From a virus, in the IMG/VR virus record IMGVR_UViG_3300035661_000137, positions 1-41,519 of that record: a stretch of 41,519 bases of DNA. One strand, given 5' to 3'. Shown in pieces: positions 3,673 to 18,761 of this stretch (position 1 is its first letter; the number at the start of each line of letters is the position of its first letter). The position numbers and the translations under genes are program-made. A model generated the notes under the pieces. The model was not told where the DNA came from. It searched no databases and was given only the letters and a program-made list of their open reading frames with translations.

Positions 3673-5856
3673 TCACTCCTCATCTTCAGTGTTGTCTTGC
3701 TCGGTTAAAACTGGCAGCACCACGCACATGCAATTGGGGTGCAGAGGGGCATCGCCGCCGGGAAACTCATCACCAATATCAACGATCATGCCGTCAAGCG
3801 CTGCGCATTCGTCACAGCACGCTTCGGCGGTGAGCCATTCTTTCTTGTCCACCACGCCGGACGATTTCCACGCAGTCAGGTTGCCTTGGACATGCGCCCG
3901 CGCAATCTCTGTCCGTCCGACTGTCTCGGCTCGGACATCGGAAAACGCTTGGCTGTCCTGCACTTCGTCAGACAGCCGCTGACTTGCCCATCCTTCGTTG
4001 ATGGCGTTCATCACCAGGCTGCGCAACTTCTCGCGCGTGCCTTCGGTGATTGTCCAGACGGCGTTCGGATTCTCTACCAGTTCGCCTTCTATCCATTTCA
4101 TACCGACCAGCTCAGCGCCCCGGTCTGCTGCAAACTGCGCGGCTTCCTTGCTCACCTGGTCGGTGATGCCCTTGTCGCTGATTCCTACCTGTAATATCCC
4201 GACCTTGCCGCCGTCCTGCGCGATGCGTTTAAGCACCGGCTCAATGTCGCTGGCAAGCACAGCCCATCCGGCGAAGTCCAGCTCGGCCAGAATGCGTTCC
4301 ACGTCAGATGCGTCGTCCTTGTCAGAAGCGTCGTCCTTGCCCAGCTTGTCCAGCCAGTCCTGTATCTGCGCGGTCATGTCGGCAACCTGCGAACGCAGAA
4401 AGCGTTTAATAATGCGCGTGGCCTTGGATATGCCCTTGTCCACAACTGCACTGCTCGTCGCTACATGCTTTTTTTTTTCAATCTTTACGGCTTGTTCTAG
4501 CTCGCCTGGCTTCGGAGGTTCGTTGACCGGAATCGAAACAACAGGCTCAGGAGGCTCAGGCGGGTCAATCACGTCCTTGAGCAGCACTGCGCCTTGTGCC
4601 GTGTAAATCATCGGCAGGTCTCCGCCTTCGACCGGTTCCATGCCGTCATCGGCGCGCACTTCATTGATGGTGCGGGTGCCGTTGCGTAGCTTCTGGTCGT
4701 TGATCGCGGCTTGTATGTCTGGCGCGATGTCCCTGTCGGCCTGCCATGCAAAGCACAGGTCGGTATATCCGAAGTAACGCCATATCAGCGTATTCATTAA
4801 ATCTTCGACCCACTGCATCAGCGGTTGCAAGCCTTCCTGCAATGCCGCATCCTGTGCGCTCTCGGCTGTGGCTTTGTTGTTCGATTTGATGAACGGGGTC
4901 GGAGGGATGGAGAACGCGAAGCAGACGATGCGAGCCAGCCATTCGTCGAACTCATCCATGAGCGCCTGCGCCTTGGTGTCAATCGGTGTTACGCCGCCTG
5001 GAACAAACTTGGCCGTGTGCTTCGACTGGCCGGAGTTGATGCTGTCCCAGAATCCCTGGAACGCCTTTATCTGGTCGGGGTTCCACGTATCCGGCACGCC
5101 GAATATCAGGTTCGGCGTGTTGCCGTCAGTGTAATACGAAAGCTGGTTCATCTGGCGGCGCAGAGCGATGTTGACCGTCATGATGATCTGCTCGACAGGG
5201 CTGTATCCGTATACCTTGTGGGTGCGGACGTTGCGCGGCAGATAGACCAGTTCGTCGCGGCTATAATCGACCGCTGGAAGTCCCTTCAGTATCTGCTGAT
5301 AAGCCGGGTCAGGCGGCAGCGGTGTTCGCCCCGTGGGGTCGATAACGCGCTTGATAGTCCCGCCGTCGATCAGCTCAAACGCATACGGTGCGCCGCCAAG
5401 CGTCTTTCTGGGGTATACGGTGGCCGCGTCGATTACGAACATATCCTCCAGCGCCATACGAAGCCATGTCTGGAAATTGTGCTCGCCATCCGGGAATGCA
5501 AGAAACTCATGCACGGCCTTGCATCGGTCGTCCGGTTTCCGGTCTTCGTCCTTGGGCTGGACTTTCCACTGCATCTTGACCATTTGATCCTTGCGGGTCT
5601 CGATAACCATCCGCAGCAGGTCGTATCCGTCGGCCAGCGCCCGCATCTGCGCGAACGATACCGCCTCGCCAGCACGCGGCGTGAGCCGGGTATTTGCAAA
5701 GACCGGGTAGTCGAACTGCCGTCCGATTGCCTGTTCCTGTGCTACAGGGGGCAGCGGATCGCCAGGGCCGAACCAGTCCGGCTGCTTGCCGGTCAGCGCA
5801 TAGCGCACGCCAGCCACCGCACGGGCGATCATGCTAGGTTCAATCGGTGTCTTCAT
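3673..5856 (-). CDS. portal protein fused to MuF minor head domain
   Basis: The product is 727 residues. Residues ~1-430 are an HK97/SPP1-type portal ('DLLRMVIETRKDQMVKMQWK', 'NIALRRQMNQLSYYTDGN', 'ADDGMEPVEGGDLP'). A Pro/Lys-rich linker follows at about 431-480. Residues ~625-722 form a MuF-like head morphogenesis domain with 'VGRTEIARAHVQGN', CC..C near 'EACCDEC', and 'LHPNCMC'. Portals are usually 400-500 residues and MuF proteins separate, so this is a true fusion. The linker contains ten consecutive A in the mRNA (4469-4478), in the dnaX-type A AAA AAG phase. A -1 shift there would end 20 codons later and give a 483-residue portal without MuF. The start has an AAGG site. Confidence 0.9.
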   Translation of the reverse strand: MKTPIEPSMIARAVAGVRYALTGKQPDWFGPGDPLPPVAQEQAIGRQFDYPVFANTRLTPRAGEAVSFAQMRALADGYDLLRMVIETRKDQMVKMQWKVQPKDEDRKPDDRCKAVHEFLAFPDGEHNFQTWLRMALEDMFVIDAATVYPRKTLGGAPYAFELIDGGTIKRVIDPTGRTPLPPDPAYQQILKGLPAVDYSRDELVYLPRNVRTHKVYGYSPVEQIIMTVNIALRRQMNQLSYYTDGNTPNLIFGVPDTWNPDQIKAFQGFWDSINSGQSKHTAKFVPGGVTPIDTKAQALMDEFDEWLARIVCFAFSIPPTPFIKSNNKATAESAQDAALQEGLQPLMQWVEDLMNTLIWRYFGYTDLCFAWQADRDIAPDIQAAINDQKLRNGTRTINEVRADDGMEPVEGGDLPMIYTAQGAVLLKDVIDPPEPPEPVVSIPVNEPPKPGELEQAVKIEKKKHVATSSAVVDKGISKATRIIKRFLRSQVADMTAQIQDWLDKLGKDDASDKDDASDVERILAELDFAGWAVLASDIEPVLKRIAQDGGKVGILQVGISDKGITDQVSKEAAQFAADRGAELVGMKWIEGELVENPNAVWTITEGTREKLRSLVMNAINEGWASQRLSDEVQDSQAFSDVRAETVGRTEIARAHVQGNLTAWKSSGVVDKKEWLTAEACCDECAALDGMIVDIGDEFPGGDAPLHPNCMCVVLPVLTEQDNTEDEE
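4469..4478 (-). other. A10 slippery run at portal/MuF junction
   Basis: The minus strand has ten consecutive A, read as GAA AAA AAA AAG (E460-K463), which includes the A AAA AAG heptamer. The -1 frame stops after 20 more codons and the +1 frame stops two codons later, at ATG TAG. Ribosomal or transcriptional slippage would therefore yield a portal lacking the MuF domain. Whether slippage happens is inference. Confidence 0.5.
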
Positions 5857-5901
5857 TCGATGCCTTGTTTATTACTCATAAAACCAGCCGGGTGTTGTTA
5901 T

Positions 5902-7485
5902 TTATAGCCTGCCGCGCTGGGCAATCAACGTACCTTCGATCCCTCCCGAAGCCCACCCAATATCAGAGCGTTTGCTTTGGTAGATTTTCGCAGTGGCGCG
6001 AGTCTCATAGTTAGTTTCAACAGCGGCACCCCAGTCAGCAATAGCTGTAGAAGCTGCGTATGTAGTCGCGCCGTTGACGAATGGCGCGCCGCCTGTGTTC
6101 ACGCCTGCTGGGATATAATAGCTGTTCCCTATCATCGTTCCGGTTGAAGTATCCGTCGCGCTGCCGATAGCAGCAATTAAGTTCGGCTGGTAAGTCGAGG
6201 ATGCTGTAATCATGTTGCCGCTGAAGATAACTCCTGCCGAGTTCGTCCCAGCGCCATCGTTGAATGACCCCATGCAAAGCGCATGGTTGATGGAATCGAG
6301 TGTGATCCTGTTGCTGAAGAAGATGGTGCCCGTCGTACCTTTCCCATACAACAGGGTCGCGCTAAAGTTCTTTTGGTTGACGACCTTATTGCACCCGATG
6401 TAAGAACGCTCGGTTTGTAGCTTCGAGATAAATGGGATGGCAACGCCGGTCGCGGTGTTGTTGACCATCGCGCCGCCCTTCATCGAACCGAACAAGAATC
6501 CATGCGGCAGCGCGTCAGACCCCGTATATGAAAAGTCGTTGTCGTGACATATTGGGTAGTTCTGGAAGTTGTCATTGGCGCTTGCACCATCGGTTCCGTG
6601 CAGATACAGATAATGCCCGGCTGCAGAGTTCACGCCGCTGTTGTAGCGGCAGATACTGTTGTCGGCTTGCACTACCCCAACAGGGGAGGCTACGACAATA
6701 CTCGCGGTGGTAGCTGTACCCGAAATCGCCATGCCATAGTTGTTCTCGAAAATATATCGGATGTTAGAAGCGCCAAGCACACACGGAGTACTTGCCGCGC
6801 TGGCGGCCACACTGGCGCTGCAATTACGCACCCGAACCCACCCAGCATTAGATGTGTTTCCCTTAGCATAGAACGCGCCACATCGGTCGGTTACTACGTT
6901 GGTAATCGCACCCGATAATCCATTGATGTCAACTGATCCAGTTGTGATGTTGGGCGCATAAACCCCGCCCTTACCAAAACCATTGTCTACCCGTATGTTG
7001 TAGCCAGTGGCAGTCTGTGTATTGCCGCCAAACCAGAAAGCTGCCCCGGTGTTTGCTGCCCCGGTGTTAATAACCCATGGGCCGTTTATACCGAGGGCTT
7101 CGTCACCCCATTTGATTGCTGAAGTGGCATAAACAACAGAAGCATTTGCACCCATCCCGCTGGCATCGACCTTGAACGCTCCAAGGGTGCAAGCTGTTCC
7201 ACCATTATTTTGCAGGAAGGCAGTGCCTTGCCCCGCAGCAGGCTTTAGCGTCACCTGATAATCATTCAGCGGCTTGATAGTCTGGTTAGAATTGGAAAAC
7301 GCCCAGAATGTTGATGCGTGCGTATATGTACCATCATTGACTATACATATATCGGTTGCCACCATAACTGTGAGCGCTTTTTCCAGAGTCAGGAATGGGA
7401 GTGATGTAGTTAATCCGCTGTTGGTGTCAACGCCAACTGCCCATCCGTTTGCCGCGCTTTTTGAAACGTAGTATGTAATCGCCAT
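5902..7485 (-). CDS. parallel beta-helix protein (pectate-lyase-like fold)
   Basis: The product is 527 residues, rich in Asn, Gly, Ser, Thr and Ala. It starts 'AITYYVSKSAANGWAVGVDT', a typical opening of right-handed parallel beta-helix phage proteins in which a grid of 'columns' begins. Many short strands with Asn ladders follow ('YIFENNYGMAI', 'AMVNNTATGVAI', 'IFFSNRITLDSI', 'VIFSGNMITASS'). I see no catalytic motif. Such proteins serve as tailspikes, depolymerases or surface decorations. Here it lies between terminase and portal rather than with the tail-fibre genes, so a capsid decoration or neck fibre is as plausible as a tailspike. It has a GGTGG site and starts 1 bp from the preceding gene. 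Confidence 0.6.
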   Translation of the reverse strand: MAITYYVSKSAANGWAVGVDTNSGLTTSLPFLTLEKALTVMVATDICIVNDGTYTHASTFWAFSNSNQTIKPLNDYQVTLKPAAGQGTAFLQNNGGTACTLGAFKVDASGMGANASVVYATSAIKWGDEALGINGPWVINTGAANTGAAFWFGGNTQTATGYNIRVDNGFGKGGVYAPNITTGSVDINGLSGAITNVVTDRCGAFYAKGNTSNAGWVRVRNCSASVAASAASTPCVLGASNIRYIFENNYGMAISGTATTASIVVASPVGVVQADNSICRYNSGVNSAAGHYLYLHGTDGASANDNFQNYPICHDNDFSYTGSDALPHGFLFGSMKGGAMVNNTATGVAIPFISKLQTERSYIGCNKVVNQKNFSATLLYGKGTTGTIFFSNRITLDSINHALCMGSFNDGAGTNSAGVIFSGNMITASSTYQPNLIAAIGSATDTSTGTMIGNSYYIPAGVNTGGAPFVNGATTYAASTAIADWGAAVETNYETRATAKIYQSKRSDIGWASGGIEGTLIAQRGRL

Positions 7486-7486
7486 G

Positions 7487-7903
7487 TTAAGCCACCGTCA
7501 CCGCAGTTACAGCATTATTGACATCGTAGGTTGGAGTTACGGTGCTGCCATTGCTTCCGGTAATCACTGAGACATAGCCTGCCGCGTTGTAGCTTACGGT
7601 GTAGGTAATGCCGCTCTTGACGTAGGTATTAACCGTGCCGTCTGTATTGTTGGTGATGGAAGTTACTGTCTGTGTTCCACCTGTTTGGATAGCAATGCCA
7701 TTCACATACAAACTCACCGAGCCGTCCGAGTTGACGGTGGCTGTAACGCCATCCTCCATCGCGGGTGTCCACCCGGACAGCATCAGCTCAGGCGCATATT
7801 TACTATCCGCCGTGGCGTATCCGCTAGCCACGGTAATCTTTCTGCCGTCGGAAAGGGTTGCGTCTGACACGCCGCTCGGTGCATAGAATTTGATATTAGC
7901 CAT
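7487..7903 (-). CDS. small structural protein, unknown
   Basis: The product is 138 residues and has no charged core. The N-terminal part ('MANIKFYAPSGVSDATLSDG') reads like a short beta domain. The rest is Thr/Val/Ser/Gly/Asn-rich with repeated 'VT..TNNTDGTVNTYV' and 'TVSYNAAGYVSVITGSNGS' strands, as in fibre stems or surface decoration proteins. It overlaps the end of terL by 8 bp and is followed 1 bp later by the beta-helix gene, so the two probably act together, for example one as an anchor for the other. That link is inferred from adjacency and composition. Confidence 0.65.
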   Translation of the reverse strand: MANIKFYAPSGVSDATLSDGRKITVASGYATADSKYAPELMLSGWTPAMEDGVTATVNSDGSVSLYVNGIAIQTGGTQTVTSITNNTDGTVNTYVKSGITYTVSYNAAGYVSVITGSNGSTVTPTYDVNNAVTAVTVA

Positions 7904-9326
7904 TGTCTTTTCCCTCTTTGTGTTGAGCCGCTAGGCTCGCGTAAAACTCGATCATTCCAGTGGTGCCGCCAAGCAATTCAGCGAAGGCGCGGGATAGTGC
8001 ATCTACTTGGTCGTCATTGTTGCCGTTGGGGAACGTGCGCATTTCATTGACCAGCGCATCATTCCACTCGCCGCGCAACATCATCACGTTGCCAACGTTG
8101 ACCTGTGAGGCCAGCGGTTCGGCGCGTGTTACTTTGTCGCCTGTCTCGGGCGAAGTTGTAACCGAGTACCCGGCAAGTTTGCGGGTCAGGTAAAGCGCCT
8201 GCGTCTTGCCAGCCTGGCCTGGGTCTTGCGGGATGCTGATGCGCACTCCGGTGCCGTCACGGCTGGCCGTGTTCATCATCGCGGCATCACGCTCATCAGG
8301 GCCGCAACGCTTGCGCTCCATGTCACCGATGATGAATCTTCCATCCGGCAACTTTCCGAGCTTGCCACCGGCGGTGTAGTCGCCGTCAACCGTAGCGGCC
8401 AAGTCCCAGCCGCGCACCCATTCAATATGGACTGCCGGTAGTGCGTCTATTACCTGCATCTGGTCGGGCTTGATTACACCTCCGGCCAGCGGTGCCGGGC
8501 GCTGCATGTACTGGCCTGCGACCACATACGGCGCGGCCTGCTCCATGCGGCGCAGGACTTCGACGCTGTGCTTTTCCGGCCACAGCGCGGTGCCGTCCTC
8601 ATTGATCGCGGGAAGGCAGACGTGCTGCCATTCCTCTCCATTGCCGCCGTCGAGCAGCCAGCCGGACAAGTCACCTTCATGCAATCGCTGCATGATAAGG
8701 ATTATCGGTGTGTCCGGGCTGTTCTTGCGGCTTTCCAGCGTGTTCTGGAACCAATCGATCACGTTCTGCCGCATCACGTCGCTGCGGGCTTCGTCTGCCT
8801 TGTGGGGATCATCAAGGATGATGGCACCGCCAAAGCCGGGTCGATGCTTGCCAGCACCGAAGCCGGTAATGGTGCCGCCCGCGCCTGCCGAGTACATCAC
8901 ACCGCCTACGGTGGTCGTCCAGTGCGCCTTGGCCTCACTATCAAGTTGGCAGGCTGGGAAAATATCACGGTACGCCTCATGCTGGATTACCCCGCGCACT
9001 TGGGCGCTGTTGTTGGTTGCCAGCGTGGCGCTGTAACTGGCGTGTATAAATTCAGCGTCTGGAGTTTTCCCAAGCGCCCACGCGATGAAGTTCACCACGG
9101 CCAGTTCCGTCTTACTGTAGCGCGGCGGTACGTTTATTATGAGCCGCTTGCACTCGCCCCGGTACACGCGCATCAGGGATTCACAGATTATCTGGTGATG
9201 CCCGGCACGTTGCCAATTAAATCCGCGCCGTTGCAGAAACATCCAGCGGCTGAAGAAGTACAAGTCCTCCTGCGAAAGTATCGCCGCCGACTGCTTTTCA
9301 GCCGGTGTATATTCGCGCATGGTCAA
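7896..9326 (-). CDS. terL: terminase large subunit
   Basis: The product is 476 residues, the usual length. The N-terminal ATPase has a Walker A 'PPRYSKTE' (67-74, with the R-K variant seen in many TerL) and Walker B 'AIILDDP' (168-174). The C-terminal RNase H-like nuclease has 'WDLAAT' (first Asp at 308), 'DGDYTAG' (314-320) and the final acidic motif 'NDDQVDALSRAF' near 437-448. It packages DNA into the prohead at the portal vertex. Its start overlaps the terS stop (ATGA), so the two are coupled. This variant has been called 'phage uncharacterized protein C-terminal / terminase' in many proteobacterial phages. Confidence 0.96.
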   Translation of the reverse strand: MTMREYTPAEKQSAAILSQEDLYFFSRWMFLQRRGFNWQRAGHHQIICESLMRVYRGECKRLIINVPPRYSKTELAVVNFIAWALGKTPDAEFIHASYSATLATNNSAQVRGVIQHEAYRDIFPACQLDSEAKAHWTTTVGGVMYSAGAGGTITGFGAGKHRPGFGGAIILDDPHKADEARSDVMRQNVIDWFQNTLESRKNSPDTPIILIMQRLHEGDLSGWLLDGGNGEEWQHVCLPAINEDGTALWPEKHSVEVLRRMEQAAPYVVAGQYMQRPAPLAGGVIKPDQMQVIDALPAVHIEWVRGWDLAATVDGDYTAGGKLGKLPDGRFIIGDMERKRCGPDERDAAMMNTASRDGTGVRISIPQDPGQAGKTQALYLTRKLAGYSVTTSPETGDKVTRAEPLASQVNVGNVMMLRGEWNDALVNEMRTFPNGNNDDQVDALSRAFAELLGGTTGMIEFYASLAAQHKEGKDNG

Positions 9327-9814
9327 ACCTCAGTTATCAGCGCCCTCGCGGTCTCTCGGAATTCATCGTGTGTGATGGTCGGCTGCGCGTTGTTGTTGAT
9401 CTGTATAGCCGTTTCGGGCTGCCTGCCAACCACGACTTCCTTGGCCTTGCTGATTGTATCAGCACGCGCCCTGTAGTCGTTCTGATTATCACAAGGATGC
9501 GCCATGGCACCCTTGACGTTCTTTAGTGCCTGGACGTTCAGCCATTCCACGCGCATAACGCGTTCATCGACTATCTCGTTATGCACGGCAAGCGCCTGTT
9601 CCGTTAGCGTTCCCTTTGCCAGTCCAACCCGCACAGCGTCAACGATTAGCTGTTCCTTTTCAGTTCCTTTTGCCCATCCTTCCAAGCCCGAGCGTTTGCT
9701 TAACTGCGTCTTACTGATTCCGGTCTTGGCAACTATTGCGGACAGGGAAAGCCCCGCCTCGAAATACTCTTTCGCCTCCGCCCATTGTTCGGGTGTTGTC
9801 TTAATGTTCGCCAT
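9323..9814 (-). CDS. terS: terminase small subunit
   Basis: The product is 163 residues. The N-terminal ~60 contain a helix-turn-helix ('WAEAKEYFEAGLSLSAIVAK' then 'TGISKTQLSKRSGLEGWAKG') of the kind used by TerS to bind the packaging site. The central helical region should form the oligomeric ring. The C-terminal tail ('QPTITHDEFRETARALITEV') would contact TerL. Position directly upstream of terL with an ATGA overlap supports the call. A GAGGTG site precedes the ATG at 9814. Confidence 0.88.
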   Translation of the reverse strand: MANIKTTPEQWAEAKEYFEAGLSLSAIVAKTGISKTQLSKRSGLEGWAKGTEKEQLIVDAVRVGLAKGTLTEQALAVHNEIVDERVMRVEWLNVQALKNVKGAMAHPCDNQNDYRARADTISKAKEVVVGRQPETAIQINNNAQPTITHDEFRETARALITEV

Positions 9815-9850
9815 CTAGCACCTCGCCAACGCAGGCCAAGGAACGCGGCA

Positions 9851-10501
9851 TCAATTTATTGCTCCCGCCCGCGTCTGCCCATTGCCCGGAAGCAAGAGCA
9901 GGTCTGGGCGGTAGGCTGGGGGGCGGTCGATAGACGGCTCCCATGTCGCCAGCGCCTCGTCCTGCGGCACGCCATGCAGGTACCCGCGCGACAAAAAACC
10001 GGCGACGGCTTCCGCCAGCAGGGTTACTCCTAACGGGGCGAGGTCGCGCCGCCATAATTCCTCGGCGGTGTCCCCCGGCGCGATAAATACGTGGCGCTGC
10101 GCCAGCACGTCGCCGCCGTCCATGCGGTTGCTCAGGCGGTAAACGCTCCCGCCGGTCACTTTTTCGCCCATCCTGATAGCCCAGCGCACGGCGTCTTTTC
10201 CACGGTGCAGGGGGAGCAGGCTGGGGTGGTATCCGATGCCGCCCCAACGCGCGCGGAGGCGGGTGCGCTCGCCGATAAAGTCGTGGGAATGCGCGGCGAC
10301 GATAAGGTCAATGCCGTCTGGCACGGTTTCAGCCCGGAGCGCGCCAGGCGGTATTATTTTTATGCCGCGCTCGACCGCCGCGTTAAATAGCCTATCACCG
10401 AGCGGCGCGGTAACGGCGGCCACGTCAACGCCTGGAATTAACGAAATTGCGCGGAGTACCTCGGCACCAAACCATTTCTGCCCCGCGATTACTAACCTCA
10501 T
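9851..10501 (-). CDS. formyltransferase-fold protein
   Basis: The product is 216 residues with the formyltransferase N-terminal fold used by Fmt, PurN and 10-formyl-THF hydrolase domains. It opens with 'MRLVIAGQKWFGAEVLRA'. The signature is 'GYHPSLLPLHRGKDAVRWAI' with His92, and the catalytic Asp is D128 in 'MDGGD'; the 36-residue His-Asp spacing equals that in PurN and FDH. The Asn two residues before the His in Fmt/PurN is Gly here; the 'YHPSLLP.HRG' form recalls the 10-formyl-THF dehydrogenase hydrolase domain. There is no tRNA-binding C-terminal domain, so it is not Fmt. It likely moves or removes a one-carbon formyl group, substrate unknown. It is ATGA-coupled to the ABC-GNAT gene, suggesting a joint pathway such as nucleobase modification. 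Confidence 0.8.
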   Translation of the reverse strand: MRLVIAGQKWFGAEVLRAISLIPGVDVAAVTAPLGDRLFNAAVERGIKIIPPGALRAETVPDGIDLIVAAHSHDFIGERTRLRARWGGIGYHPSLLPLHRGKDAVRWAIRMGEKVTGGSVYRLSNRMDGGDVLAQRHVFIAPGDTAEELWRRDLAPLGVTLLAEAVAGFLSRGYLHGVPQDEALATWEPSIDRPPAYRPDLLLLPGNGQTRAGAIN

Positions 10502-15100: not shown

Positions 15101-15291
15101 TTCATCATTCCCTTAAGCCATCCTGCCCGGTACGCTATCCGTTCCGAATAGCTCGAAAATTGTGGATTGCTTTTCAGGTCGCATAATTTCCCCGCAGTTA
15201 TCCCCAGTAAATATGCCAGTTTCTCCCCACTGGTCTGCCATAGATTTTGCAATTCCGGAGAATGTCCTCGACCTTTCTTTCCATCTGTCAT
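15097..15291 (-). CDS. possible overlapping small gene
   Basis: A 64-codon frame lies within the 3' end of the methyltransferase gene in another frame. Its C-terminus 'SYSERIAYRAGWLKGMMK' resembles the ends of small phage proteins of the ribosome-modulation-factor type. Its stop overlaps the next gene's ATG (ATGA), the pattern used throughout this operon. The methyltransferase domain proper seems to end near residue 195, so the last ~38 residues of that protein could be the spurious reading. I cannot decide between them without homologues. Confidence 0.35.
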   Translation of the reverse strand: MTDGKKGRGHSPELQNLWQTSGEKLAYLLGITAGKLCDLKSNPQFSSYSERIAYRAGWLKGMMK

Positions 15292-15814
15292 CGCTTGGCC
15301 CCAAATTGTTTTGTCCTGAATCGCACTGATTCGCCCACCGCTTTTTCCCGTTCACAATTCTCGGCTCAATGTATTGTGTCGTGGTCAGCAACGGCAAGCC
15401 TTTCAGCCATAAGCGGGTTTTCTTGCTTGCGTCTTCGCCGAACTGGTACGGGTTTATGATCTGGTCAGGTTTGCGAATGCGACTTGAAATTACGCTCACT
15501 GGGTTTTCTACAGCGATTCGTGGTATCGGTGCATCCATCAGCAGGCGTACAAAGTCAAGCGCGTCCTCGGTAAGCTGTGGGTCGCGCAATCCACGCGTCG
15601 TCCAGTGCATCCCGCTCACACTCAAATAAGTGCAGGGCGGGTGGAAGATTGCCAAATCCCAGTGATCTTTAAGAACCGGGAAAATGTCGCCCTGAATGTG
15701 AAATTCTGAACCGTCCTCAGACGGAAGCAAATCGCATGACCACGCGTCATGCCCCAAATCTCGGAATGCCCGCCTCACTCTGCCGGAATACTCGCAGCCA
15801 ACAATCACGCGCAT
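15113..15814 (-). CDS. cytosine-C5 DNA methyltransferase-like protein
   Basis: The product is 233 residues with a GGAGG site. It carries C5-MTase core motifs: 'MRVIVGCEYSGRVRRAFRDL' (SAM-binding motif I variant), 'DLAIFHPPCTYLSVSG' with the catalytic PPC cysteine at 61, and 'AVENPV' (the ENV-like motif IV at 103). 'SKKTRLWLKGLP' and 'RSRTFSGIAKSMADQWG' are typical of a short phage family annotated as DNA cytosine methylase. There is no obvious target-recognition domain and it is shorter than standard C5-MTases (300+), so its target may be set by a partner or be relaxed. It probably protects phage DNA or regulates replication. It lies in the replication operon. Confidence 0.82.
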   Translation of the reverse strand: MRVIVGCEYSGRVRRAFRDLGHDAWSCDLLPSEDGSEFHIQGDIFPVLKDHWDLAIFHPPCTYLSVSGMHWTTRGLRDPQLTEDALDFVRLLMDAPIPRIAVENPVSVISSRIRKPDQIINPYQFGEDASKKTRLWLKGLPLLTTTQYIEPRIVNGKKRWANQCDSGQNNLGPSDDRWKERSRTFSGIAKSMADQWGETGIFTGDNCGEIMRPEKQSTIFELFGTDSVPGRMA

Positions 15815-16483
15815 TTATTTTGCCTCCAACATGGCCTTGATTCCTGCAATTCGCTTTATCGCCATCTCCCGATCCTGCTCAGTCGATGATTCGTCAGTGA
15901 GCGTTCCATTTACCGCGACCAGCGCCAGCATAGAGCTCCCGCGTTCAGTGATAGGCGGTGGCAAGAGTCCTGCGGCGTATGCCTGGCCGATCCTGCCTAG
16001 CCTCACAGCCTCCTGTAAAACAATATCGCGCCCGTTTTTGTCATGCCCCAGTGATGCAAACCAGCGCGGCTTTATTCCGACAGACTTGTTGCTCTCAACG
16101 ATCCGGTTATACGCATCACGAAAAGCCATGCGCGCCCCGTTTTTGTCGTCAACCTGCTGGGCAATTCCAAACGCTTCACTCATTTCGTCGGTCATGACCA
16201 CACTGGCGGCCTCATCTTTATACGGCAGCATTGCCCAGGCTTCGTCTGCACCCGGCCTGCCGTCTGGGTTGGCCTTGTCGATCAGGGTGCGGATATTCGC
16301 TGGGGTGATTGTCTGGCCGTTCTCGCTCATGTGGCGGCTGAATGCTGCGCGAACTTGCGTCATGGTGTAAGCCTTCAAGATTCCCCACCACAGGCGCTTG
16401 GTTTCAACACTCGCCTCCATGCGGTAAACCGGCATAGCAGCGTCTATCAGGTCTGAGAACAGGCGTTTTTCGTTGTCAAGCAT
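15815..16483 (-). CDS. probable helicase loader / replication protein P-like
   Basis: The product is 222 residues with a GGGGAG site, overlapping the end of the DUF1376 gene by 8 bp. The N-terminal ~75 residues are helical: 'KRLWWGILKAYTMTQVRAAF' followed by 'GQTITPANIRTLIDKANPDG'. That organisation recurs in phage helicase-loader-type proteins (G39P-like and P-like), where an N-terminal helical domain binds helicase. There is no AAA ATPase motif, so it is not DnaC-like. The C-terminal half includes 'LGHDKNGRDIVLQEAVRLGR'. Its place directly after the DUF1376 replication gene supports a replisome-loading role; the family assignment is by pattern and context only. Confidence 0.5.
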   Translation of the reverse strand: MLDNEKRLFSDLIDAAMPVYRMEASVETKRLWWGILKAYTMTQVRAAFSRHMSENGQTITPANIRTLIDKANPDGRPGADEAWAMLPYKDEAASVVMTDEMSEAFGIAQQVDDKNGARMAFRDAYNRIVESNKSVGIKPRWFASLGHDKNGRDIVLQEAVRLGRIGQAYAAGLLPPPITERGSSMLALVAVNGTLTDESSTEQDREMAIKRIAGIKAMLEAK

Positions 16484-17267
16484 GATGTGAACACTCCCCG
16501 TTTACGGTGAAAGGGTCTGACTCGTCAGCCAGGAAGGCGGCGGTGGACTTGCGGTTGTTTTCTTCCCGCTGTTGGTGAGGGGTCAAAAATTGGGTTTGCC
16601 GCTTTTCGGATTTTCTAAACTTATTCGCGTTGCGCAGCCATGTGTTCAGGGCTAAATCCCAGTTTGTCATCGTAGAGCCATGCGCGACGTGGTAATCACA
16701 AAACTGCGGCAATTCGTCAAACAAAATCACGGACAGGCTGTCGGCCAGATCGTGGTGGCTTTGCTTGGGTTCGAAGTCTTCAGGCAACGAATGTTTGCGT
16801 TTTGCTTTGCTTGGCAAGCGCGGGGCGGTTGCGCCTATAGATGGTTCATGGTTATTGGTTATTGGTTCATGGTTATTGGTTATTGGTTCATGGTTAGCAT
16901 TGGCCTTAGCATGGGGCGTTAACGGGGGGGCTATAGGGAGGCTATCGTCGCCCTTTCCCCACCTCTTTTCTGCCCCACGCTTACCCCCTTCGGCCATACG
17001 CTTGTATGCCGATATTTCCTTGTCTGCGCGGGCGTTGTGATAGCCGTCGTCGAGCAATACAAAAAACTCATTCAGCACATCACGCATTGCGGCTCGGTCA
17101 TCATCGTCAACAATACAGCGACGCGCCAGTCGGTCAAAATCGCTAGTCAGCGGGCTTTCGGTGTCGTAGTAGAGTTCAAGCAGGTCGCGGTAAATGGATC
17201 GCTCAACACGGGAGAGGTGTCGTGTCGCATTGTTGAAGTCGCCGATATGATGCTGGTAGAAGTTCAT
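16476..17267 (-). CDS. DUF1376 replication initiation-like protein
   Basis: The product is 263 residues from the ATG at 17267, preceded by a GAGAAG site; the frame is open for 40 more codons upstream but family members start 'MNFYQHHIGDF'. Residues 1-90 form the DUF1376 (YdaU-type) winged-helix domain: 'ATRHLSRVERSIYRDLLELY' then 'TESPLTSDFDRLARRC'. A basic linker 'GKRGAEKRWGKG' and a repeated NHEPITN segment (about 124-142) follow, then a C-terminal helical domain with 'MTNWDLALNTWLRNANKFRK'. Proteins with this layout occupy the initiator (lambda O-like) position in many phages. The repeated codons coincide with 21-bp DNA repeats that may be the origin. Confidence 0.75.
   Translation of the reverse strand: MNFYQHHIGDFNNATRHLSRVERSIYRDLLELYYDTESPLTSDFDRLARRCIVDDDDRAAMRDVLNEFFVLLDDGYHNARADKEISAYKRMAEGGKRGAEKRWGKGDDSLPIAPPLTPHAKANANHEPITNNHEPITNNHEPSIGATAPRLPSKAKRKHSLPEDFEPKQSHHDLADSLSVILFDELPQFCDYHVAHGSTMTNWDLALNTWLRNANKFRKSEKRQTQFLTPHQQREENNRKSTAAFLADESDPFTVNGECSHHA
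16843..16896. repeat. 21-bp direct repeats in DUF1376 gene, candidate origin iterons
   Basis: A 21-bp unit (GGTTCATGGTTATTGGTTATT on the plus strand) occurs at 16843-16863 and 16864-16884, with a 12-bp third start at 16885-16896. The period is two helical turns. Initiator genes of lambdoid phages carry origin iterons inside the coding sequence, as in lambda O, so this is a good origin candidate. The alternative is a neutral coding repeat in a linker. Confidence 0.55.
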
Positions 17268-17486
17268 TCGGTTTCTTCTCGCTTTTCGTTTGTCATGAGA
17301 AAACCCTTTGTTGATCGCCTCGACCGGATGGAATGCCGGGAGACGGAGAGGCCAGAAGGCCAGGAACGGCACGACCAAGGCGATCACGAAGGATTCTCAT
17401 ATGGCCGTCATCTTTTTTTACACCTTTCCATCAGTGCAGGTAAATCTTATACCGTTCTAACAGCGGAAGCAATAGGTTTTTGCCAG
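17268..17486. other. intergenic stretch with possible leftward promoter
   Basis: No convincing gene lies here. On the minus strand TATTGC (17474-17469) and TATAAG (17451-17446) are 17 bp apart and could be a promoter for the replication genes. Only mini-ORFs of 10 and 35 codons follow, the 10-codon one ending in an ATGA overlap with the DUF1376 start. The right edge carries the inverted repeat GTTATGCG/CGCATAAC (17486-17493 and 17501-17508). Confidence 0.4.
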
Positions 17487-17497
17487 TTATGCGTCAC
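17486..17497. repeat. copy of attC-end sequence at left of cassette-like unit
   Basis: GTTATGCGTCAC here is identical to 17853-17864 at the right end of the attC-like site. The two copies are 367 bp apart and bracket the 100-residue gene, as cassette junctions (G/TTRRRY) would. A third GCGTTATGC lies at 17512-17520. Confidence 0.5.
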
Positions 17498-17789
17498 TTG
17501 GCGCATAACCCGCGTTATGCACTCGCTCCAGCGTTACAGTCTCGCCATCCCGCGTCACACGGTATGTTTCGCCTTGTGCCTTCGCCAGCAATCGCAGCGC
17601 TTTGCCAGAATATGTCACTCCGGCAATACGCCAGGTGTCGCTCTCGTACTGGTAGCCTCCAGTCTTATTCATTCTCCAGTAGAAGAATTCGAGCGGGAAA
17701 AGAACGGCTCTGGCAGTCAAAAGCCAAAGAGGAAGCATCATTCCCTCTGGGTGCTTTGCTCGCAGCCAATCCCAAATCGTGTCTCTCAT
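17487..17789 (-). CDS. small cassette-borne protein, unknown
   Basis: The product is 100 residues from the ATG at 17789, which has a GGAGG site; the frame is open seven codons further, from a TTG. It starts 'MRDTIWDWLRAKHPEGMMLP' and has a hydrophobic 'LWLLTARAVLFPLEFFYW' segment that may be a membrane-associated helix. A compact C-terminal half follows ('WRIAGVTYSGKALRLLAKAQ', 'TYRVTRDGETVTLERV'). Similar proteins seem familiar from phage early regions but I know no function. Its stop codon is made from the TTATGC of a cassette-type junction and its start lies 13 bp from an attC-like site, so the gene may have arrived as a mobile cassette. Confidence 0.7.
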   Translation of the reverse strand: MRDTIWDWLRAKHPEGMMLPLWLLTARAVLFPLEFFYWRMNKTGGYQYESDTWRIAGVTYSGKALRLLAKAQGETYRVTRDGETVTLERVHNAGYAPSDA

Positions 17790-17801
17790 ATGAACCTCCG
17801 T

Positions 17802-17859
17802 GCATAACAATTCAATCCACGGGACCGGCTACGCCGGCCCGTGATTTCCGGCGTTATGC
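17802..17859 (+). mobile_element. integron attC-like (59-base-element-like) site
   Basis: The 58-bp element folds as attC sites do. Outer 7-bp arms GCATAAC (17802-17808) and GTTATGC (17853-17859) pair perfectly. Symmetric 9-nt unpaired spacers follow (809-817 and 844-852). An inner stem of 6+5 bp (17818-17829 with 17833-17843) is broken by one bulged A at 17824, and the loop is 3 nt. The bulged A in the left inner arm and the AACAATTC after the left core match the aadA-type attC. The outer arms deviate by one base from the RYYYAAC/GTTRRRY consensus. Gene order on the minus strand (stop, element, RBS, ATG) looks like a cassette array, but polarity by the bulge is plus. No integron integrase is in the window. 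Confidence 0.6.
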
Positions 17860-17860
17860 G

Positions 17861-18118
17861 TCACATTTTTGGGAACGGTCGGCCAATGCCAATCCGCTCT
17901 AGTCGGTCGGCCAGTTCGTTCATTTTGTCCGCAATGTTGGGCGCCTGCTCTCGCACCTTCACGACCCCAAGTTCGTCGTATCTCGCGTTGAGCCGCTTCA
18001 ACACTGTGCGTTCCACGTCGGTCTGTGGTTGCGGCAGGTTGTCGAGCCAGGTGCCAATCGTTTCAAAGCTGGCCGCCATCGCCGTGGCTAAATTCGGGTA
18101 CGTCTTTTGCCATTCCAT
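17861..18118 (-). CDS. small helical protein, unknown
   Basis: The product is 85 residues with an AGGAGAG site. It is predicted helical: 'YPNLATAMAASFETIGTWLD' and 'DVERTVLKRLNARYDELGVV', then 'IADKMNELADRLERIGIG'. There are no motifs. Its TGA stop lies directly at the right core of the attC-like site. Upstream of its RBS the minus strand reads GTTACGC, which could be a second junction. It may therefore be a gene cassette too. Confidence 0.65.
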   Translation of the reverse strand: MEWQKTYPNLATAMAASFETIGTWLDNLPQPQTDVERTVLKRLNARYDELGVVKVREQAPNIADKMNELADRLERIGIGRPFPKM

Positions 18119-18147
18119 CGTTCTCTCCTAAAAAGCCGCGTAACAAA

Positions 18148-18456
18148 TCATTCCAGTAACATTCCAATCTGCTTCGCAAGCAGGTCATCACACATCGATT
18201 TTAGCTCAGCCTGGGTTCCATACTTGGCTTCAAACCTGCGTTTCCACGGGTGGATTGACGGTGCATCCTCCCCACCGGTTTGATGATGCTCCGCGCACAA
18301 AGGGAGCACGTTTGAATGCGCACCGGGTTTTGCGCGCCCGTCTATATGGTGGATGGAGACGTGGTGGTTAACGCGGCCATCAATGCGGCAAGCGATACAG
18401 CCGACCTCGCTTGCGAGCCAATCCCAATATATGCGCTCAGATGAAGTCGGGTTCAT
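18148..18456 (-). CDS. Ref-like / DUF968-type HNH nuclease
   Basis: The product is 102 residues from the ATG at 18456, which overlaps the previous stop (ATGA). Cysteines in 'VGCIAC' and the core 'VSIHHIDGRAKPGAHSNVLP' then 'LCAEHHQTG' and 'HPWKRRFEAKYG' match the C-terminal nuclease domain of phage P1 Ref and DUF968 proteins. Ref cuts DNA at RecA-bound displacement loops. Here it is a stand-alone domain like many lambdoid DUF968 proteins, probably acting in recombination or repair. It is paired with a PD-(D/E)xK-type nuclease gene immediately upstream. Confidence 0.75.
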   Translation of the reverse strand: MNPTSSERIYWDWLASEVGCIACRIDGRVNHHVSIHHIDGRAKPGAHSNVLPLCAEHHQTGGEDAPSIHPWKRRFEAKYGTQAELKSMCDDLLAKQIGMLLE

Positions 18457-18761
18457 GTCATCGCCCTTTGTATCCACGTAACAGCCTCACCAGATTTTAC
18501 ATGGGTCGAAGTCACCCTAATTAGCGTCCAGCCTGCCAGGGCAGCTTCGTTATATTTTTCGGCATCCTTGTCGAATCCCGATCCGCGTGTATGCCGTCCG
18601 CCTATCCAATGCCCACCCTCAACCTCAACGAGGAGCATCGACTCAGGCCATGCAAAATCTGCACGCCAGCGGCGCTTGGGATCGAACTTGTATTCACGCA
18701 CCGGATGTGGAATTCCGACAGCTCGCATTTGCATAGCGAGGGTATCTTCAAGCTCGCTCAT
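18453..18761 (-). CDS. Vsr/DUF559-type endonuclease-fold protein
   Basis: The product is 102 residues. The core 'RRWRADFAWPESMLLVEVEGG' contains Asp35 and the Glu46/Glu48 pair of a PD-(D/E)xK-like site in which the usual Lys is replaced. 'RHTRGSGFDKDAEKYNEAAL' then 'GWTLIRVT' is a familiar phage version of the Vsr/DUF559 fold. It may be a Holliday-junction or nicking nuclease, or a general repair enzyme. It overlaps both neighbours (repressor and Ref-like gene), so these first genes of the leftward operon are tightly coupled. Confidence 0.72.
   Translation of the reverse strand: MSELEDTLAMQMRAVGIPHPVREYKFDPKRRWRADFAWPESMLLVEVEGGHWIGGRHTRGSGFDKDAEKYNEAALAGWTLIRVTSTHVKSGEAVTWIQRAMT

Follow-up and report, generated by a model that had tools for sequence, protein, structure and literature searches.

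The window analysed here is the whole 41,519-nt stretch of a viral record (IMG/VR IMGVR_UViG_3300035661_000137), and it carries terminase, portal, head protease, tape measure, tail, RecE and RecT genes. Within a minus-strand operon, two short ORFs, P0001 and P0002, stand between a Ref-like gene and a DUF1376 replication-type gene, and are separated from each other by a hairpin (Table 1). Searches of Pfam and PHROGs gave no function for either ORF, and the AlphaFold model of P0002 was of low confidence (pLDDT 53), too poor for a structure search. No tyrosine integrase was found in the record, which is possibly incomplete (no match to TIGR02249 or PF00589), nor did it contain the intI and attI of a complete integron. 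A short tandem repeat (TTCATGGTTATTGGTTATTGG units) lies within the DUF1376 gene at 16844-16895. Elsewhere in the window, the large-terminase match (phrog_38) at 7914-9386 begins about 230 positions into the profile and crosses two in-frame TGA codons upstream of the ORF start; this gene may be split or truncated.

Table 1. Coordinates of genes and attC-related features in the window
Feature	Position	Strand	Basis or detail
DUF1376 replication-type gene, downstream in operon, likely start ~17267	16476..17387	-	Pfam PF07120, E=1.3e-28
R-type core GTTATGC at other end of P0002 cassette, then GTCAC as at 17853-17864	17486..17492	+	exact 12-bp repeat
P0002, 100-aa ORF, reversed cassette gene	17487..17789	-	RBS, L055 homologue, third-position excess
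GCATAAC-CCGC-GTTATGC, R'' and R' 4 nt apart	17503..17520	+	sequence
RBS of P0002, CCTCC on + (GGAGG on -)	17795-17799	-	sequence
attC site	17802..17859	+	covariance model, folds, architecture finder
R'' of attC	17802-17808	+	7 nt
First spacer	17809-17813	+	5 nt
L''	17814-17816	+	3 nt
Extrahelical C	17817	+	
Stem, left arm, outer	17818-17823	+	6 bp
Extrahelical A	17824	+	
Stem/loop	17825-17837	+	5 bp, loop TAC
Stem, right arm	17838-17843	+	6 bp
L'	17844-17846	+	
Second spacer	17847-17852	+	6 nt
R'	17853-17859	+	
Predicted integrase crossover G|TTATGC (TAA|C type core on -)	17853..17854	+	R' core in canonical position; from integron G|TT rule
P0001, 85-aa ORF, upstream of attC in operon	17861..18118	-	N-terminal match to L156 gene
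Ref-like (RecA-dependent nuclease) gene, next upstream in operon	18148..18477	-	PF16786, E=1.7e-23

The attC site and its polarity

An attC-like fold of the aadA type, with perfect 7-bp outer arms, had been proposed at this place in a first-pass annotation, and closer analysis agreed with it on each of these points. The layout is R''(7), 5 nt, L(3 bp), bulged C, 6 bp, bulged A, 5 bp, loop TAC, 6 bp, L(3 bp), 6 nt and R'(7), and these dimensions equal those of aadA-type attC sites. The outer arms, GCATAAC and GTTATGC, are paired over 7 bp, in an imperfect inverted repeat with the R'' and R' cores; the latter are one position off RYYYAAC/GTTRRRY, as are some plasmid sites (GTTATGC in L057). One detail of the earlier description had to be revised. 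The hairpin was correctly placed, but its supposedly symmetric 9-nt unpaired spacers consist, on the left, of a 5-nt spacer, 3-bp L and bulged C (C17817), and on the right of a 3-bp L and 6-nt spacer. The bulged A17824, six base pairs deeper in the stem, is the second extrahelical base on the left arm. Both strands folded more stably than dinucleotide shuffles (z = -3.7 and -3.0), and neither strand has a T-run directly after the hairpin, as an intrinsic terminator would have.

Both extrahelical bases are on the 5' arm of the plus strand, and these bulges, together with the short spacer, put R'' on the left, so that the attC reads on the plus strand and the minus strand is the predicted recombinogenic 'bottom' strand, bound by the integrase. 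As both flanking genes are on the minus strand, the site points against them, which confirmed what had previously been a suspicion.

The first-pass annotation had proposed a check by attC covariance model. This was carried out with a model of our own construction, not those of IntegronFinder or HattCI, built from 13 plasmid-integron attC sites that included none from phages and not the site itself. It matched 17802-17859 along the full 60 positions, on the plus strand only, with 51.3 bits (E=2.6e-13), and this was the sole match in the window. Specificity was high: 826 kb of viral loci selected by pattern contained a single match at E<=0.1. There was no match at E<=1 in 453 kb of sequence around relatives of the DUF1376 gene, so the attC is not a long-standing part of this neighbourhood. 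An architecture finder, written after the site was already known and hence, unlike the covariance model, not independent of it, scored the site at 28, compared to a maximum of 22 among 20 Markov-shuffled windows; in eleven plasmid-integron regions the same finder recovered 26 attC sites, all with a 5-nt first spacer. An Rfam search of the window returned no attC-type family, and an alignment with long attC sites (A2) was dropped because the stems were misaligned. Judged by its sequence, 17802-17859 is a genuine integron-type attC site, inverted between two genes of a tailed phage.

A probable reversed cassette and the relatives of the flanking genes

The first-pass annotation had also described a cassette-like ORF bracketed by junctions, with GTTATGCGTCAC at both 17486 and 17853, and GTTACGC ahead of the RBS of the neighbouring gene. 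The two copies are exact, forming a 12-bp repeat, GTTACGC is present at 18138-18144 on the minus strand, and the ORF ends exactly at an R-type core, which forms its TAA stop (GCATAA|C, 17492-17486). The unit 17487-17853 is thus bounded by GTTATGC cores at both ends (17486-17492 and 17853-17859). Read on the minus strand, it consists of crossover, attC, RBS (GGAGG), ATG, ORF and GCA TAA at the next core, which means that the cassette bears its attC ahead of the gene, in reverse. In a canonical cassette the gene is followed by an attC of the same polarity, whereas here the gene is on the minus strand and the attC on the plus strand.

The 12-bp repeat runs 5 bp past the core, which a simple insertion model does not demand. 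Inside the 3' end of P0002, GCATAACCCGCGTTATGC at 17503-17520 has just 4 nt between its R'' and R' boxes. The covariance model gave no match there, but the arrangement of the boxes suggests a stem-less attC scar left by a lost neighbouring site, which may account for the 5-bp extension. At 18134-18160, before the P0001 RBS, the minus strand reads G-AAT-GATTT-GTTACGC, in which a bulge, L'', 5-nt spacer and R'' would be spaced as in one half of an attC site. This could be the decayed attC of a P0001 cassette; it was likewise without a covariance-model match.

The closest relatives of both flanking genes were found within inverted attC arrays, that of P0002 in L055 and that of P0001 in L156. P0002 and its L055 homologue are 67% identical, and of the 95 nucleotides at which they differ, 56 are in the third codon position, an excess which indicates that P0002 is a real gene in the minus-strand frame. 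The L055 contig (3.9 kb) was binned in a bacterial MAG, none of whose other contigs has an attC match at E<=0.01. The attC sites of L055 are all inverted, and its gene order is a holin-like gene, the P0002 homologue, and then genes with phage homologues, including a PAPS reductase and a methyltransferase of phrog_757, the same family as the window gene at 15113-15814. From this gene content we infer that L055 is phage-derived. L156 comes from a 61-kb viral contig, in which a gene with a P0001-like N-terminus is followed directly by an inverted attC; the similarity covers the N-terminus only (51% identity over the N-terminal 37 aa of P0001).

Searches for relatives elsewhere were negative. By tblastn, P0002 had no match in plasmids and neither P0001 nor P0002 was matched in annotated phages, and a DNA search of plasmids was likewise negative. 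When 53 relatives of the DUF1376 gene were examined as candidates for the empty site, no attC was present and none was close enough to give a clean junction; L002, for example, was only 48% identical in the neighbouring gene.

Inverted arrays and integrases in viral contigs

A pattern scan of viral contigs using aadA-like sequence patterns, a sample rather than a census, yielded 88 viral stretches, and the covariance model made 265 matches in 80 new viral loci. An initial, exact attC pattern was abandoned, as the covariance model showed that its matches in viral contigs were mostly due to chance. Sites were oriented by simple ORF calls, with a stop before and an RBS and start after each site. 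Before de-duplication, the viral loci contained 141 inverted and 6 canonical attC sites between co-directional genes. Once near-identical contigs and L249/L255 (two loci of an IntI-bearing record of bacterial type) were removed, 81 viral loci and contigs remained, the window and L055 among them. These contained 125 inverted and 4 canonical sites (103 of 233 de-duplicated sites had no orientation call), and 59 of the 81 had at least one inverted site. In contrast, all 26 attC sites of plasmid integrons were canonical, with agreeing polarity features, and lay on the gene strand. The difference did not depend on gene calling: by the longest ORF between sites, 67 were opposite and 19 the same in viral arrays, against 1 opposite and 20 the same in integrons (p=5e-10).

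At 83 of the 141 inverted sites (before de-duplication) the preceding, upstream gene ended with its stop codon exactly at the TAA|C of R'; from the attC to the start of the following gene the median distance was 21 nt. Large terminases of several types were present in at least 20 of 47 array records tested. Block inversion of an ordinary array was rejected as an origin, since gene and attC polarity would then stay matched. Phage genes separated by reversed attC sites represent a widespread and apparently undescribed pattern. One cassette gene (L127) had 20 relatives in other viral contigs, with attC sites at few of these.

Pairs of otherwise different contigs had single blocks of 150-800 bp in common. 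Among the 153 block ends lying away from contig edges, 24 were no more than 10 nt from a crossover point, where 2000 null draws gave a mean of 3.4 and at most 11; 39 were in or beside an attC (null mean 12.7, maximum 24). In the pairs L215/L218, L199/L229 and L269/L204, the common block was about one unit and ended at attC sites. The placement of block ends supports site-specific exchange, although it falls short of proof.

An intact, full-length IntI of 326 aa (TIGR02249, 474 bits; cut-off 265) is encoded in L234, a record with a terminase, directly after the inverted array and in the same transcription direction as the cassette genes. In the integrase-bearing phage contigs, as in ordinary integrons, the 5' end of intI is where the array begins. 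IntI gene and attC sites thus keep their canonical relation, and what is reversed is the cassette genes, which run towards intI. A possible attI in L234 is suggested by position only. A search with this IntI found seven further viral contigs; all six relatives tested were above the TIGR02249 cut-off (280-475 bits) and inside co-directional gene runs, and several of these six contigs had weak attC-like sites (19-20 bits, or detected by the finder only) upstream of intI on the opposite strand. An N-terminal integron integrase fragment beside an inverted attC array in L225 (7669-7869) has the same geometry as L234, that of a decayed platform.

Possible origin of the putative cassette and relation to known integrons

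The unit 17487-17853 is probably a reversed integron-type cassette with a genuine attC at 17802-17859, and would represent a one-site remnant or minimal form of the inverted-array arrangement that is widespread in phages. The first-pass annotation had favoured entry from a chromosomal integron, a view that found no support: relatives of the flanking genes were found only in phage-like inverted arrays, and none in plasmids (P0002) or annotated phages (both). The best reading of the comparisons is that the source was a phage-borne cassette pool.

An integron integrase would fold and cut the bottom strand, here the coding strand, and would move whole attC-RBS-ORF units precisely. As units move whole, each incoming gene would have its own RBS and stop and be read from the phage operon promoter. 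In the integrase-bearing phage contigs the genes run towards intI, so transcription would enter from the phage side and not from a Pc promoter, and with transcription entering from the other side, the reversed gene is in the useful orientation. Selection for expression from the phage operon may have created, or may keep, a separate pool of reversed cassettes. The phage studied here has no integrase, so movement would need one in trans, presumably from the host or a co-infecting phage, and with one attC and no integrase in the window the site may be immobile. A broader proposal, for which the prospects appear evenly balanced, is that tailed phages of many lineages share an integron system of their own, with reversed attC sites, attC-RBS-ORF-TAA cassettes read from the operon promoter and moved by a phage-carried or borrowed IntI, and intI at the downstream end of the operon.

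Among the alternatives, it is possible, if distinctly less probable, that the attC is vestigial and no longer recombines, persisting as a stable hairpin between operon genes, where it would serve mRNA stability, translational insulation or weak termination. The single site, the lack of an integrase in the record and the stem-less scar nearby at 17503-17520 would all fit, but the bulges, spacers and cores are intact and high-scoring, signs of decay are absent, and the same layout is mosaic in other phages. It is unlikely that the phage captured an ordinary, co-oriented cassette from a bacterial chromosomal integron, the minus-strand ORF being incidental or the cassette one of the rare reversed ones. 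The attC is close in sequence to those of mobile integrons, and reversed cassettes such as parDE3 are known in V. cholerae (PMC11014356), yet the minus-strand ORF is a conserved coding frame with relatives in phage-like inverted arrays and none in plasmids, and viral contigs as a rule show the inverted layout. A 12-bp target-site duplication by another small mobile element, placing GTTATGCGTCAC at both ends, is very improbable: the exact repeat does exceed the 7-bp core, but 7 of its 12 bases are attC core, the 367-bp unit is without transposase or terminal inverted repeats, and the additional GTCAC could also be what remains of the end of an adjacent cassette. Intergenic GC-rich inverted repeats are common, but a chance hairpin or intrinsic terminator can practically be dismissed, given the E-value of 2.6e-13 from the model built on plasmid attC sites, the scarcity of matches in the 826 kb of viral loci (one at E<=0.1) and 453 kb of relatives (zero at E<=1), and the absent T-run.

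Similar sites have been described previously. CALINs, clusters of two or more attC sites spread over no more than a few kb, were reported in 2023 in virulent phages without an integrase, and IntI1 recombined five of six phage attC sites tested (Qi et al. 2023, PMC9892861). The present phage resembles these in having attC without an integrase, but with a single site in the window it falls short of a CALIN. The arrays of TJE1 and PH101 were described as typical, with genes in one direction, and divergent attC directions were noted in P12002L, but neither systematic inversion of attC relative to genes nor a cassette pool so arranged was described there (PMC9892861). The TJE1 array was canonical also by our orientation test. 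A literature search with limited coverage of subscription journals and preprints found no report of reversed attC arrays or systematic inversion in phages.

With class 1 integron cassettes (aadA-type, 60-bp attC) the site shares its architecture, spacers and two bulged bases, as well as the G|TTRRRY-like crossover and a stop codon often placed in the core; it differs in that the gene opposes the attC, the attC is upstream of the gene, and this phage has no Pc/attI platform. Arrays of small genes of unassigned function separated by attC sites are also found in the sedentary chromosomal integrons of Vibrio type. In bacterial integrons the bottom-strand selectivity of the integrase sets cassette orientation, placing genes for Pc (PMC11023631), and in those of Vibrio type reversed genes such as parDE3 are exceptions (PMC11014356), whereas here they are the rule.

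If the phage arrays are what they appear to be, phages would have a cassette pool distinct from that of bacterial integrons, along with a mechanism dedicated to gene mosaicism, and cassette orientation would be set by the source of transcription rather than by an integron platform. Phage genomes are mosaics of small genes of unassigned function, for which a site-specific exchange mechanism is usually not known; precise attC borders, common units and IntI in phage operons would supply one. Surveys that assume a gene followed by an attC of the same polarity pair each gene with the wrong site in inverted arrays.

Two further viral sequences carry integron integrase genes with attC-like sites. In the deposited genome of a tailed virus, Virus Rctr41k (L283, KX853513), a gene annotated as xerD (4680-5678) is integron-integrase-like and 47% identical to the IntI of L234, and after it six long (~130 nt) attC-like sites at 6641-10101, unmatched by the covariance model, lie between co-directional genes in apparently canonical polarity. 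In L281, three attC-like sites at 4962-6377 with GAAC/GTTC cores (GAACAATTG...TGAACCGAAGTGC) are on the strand opposite the integron integrase gene of that contig, and are possibly a divergent type of phage attC.
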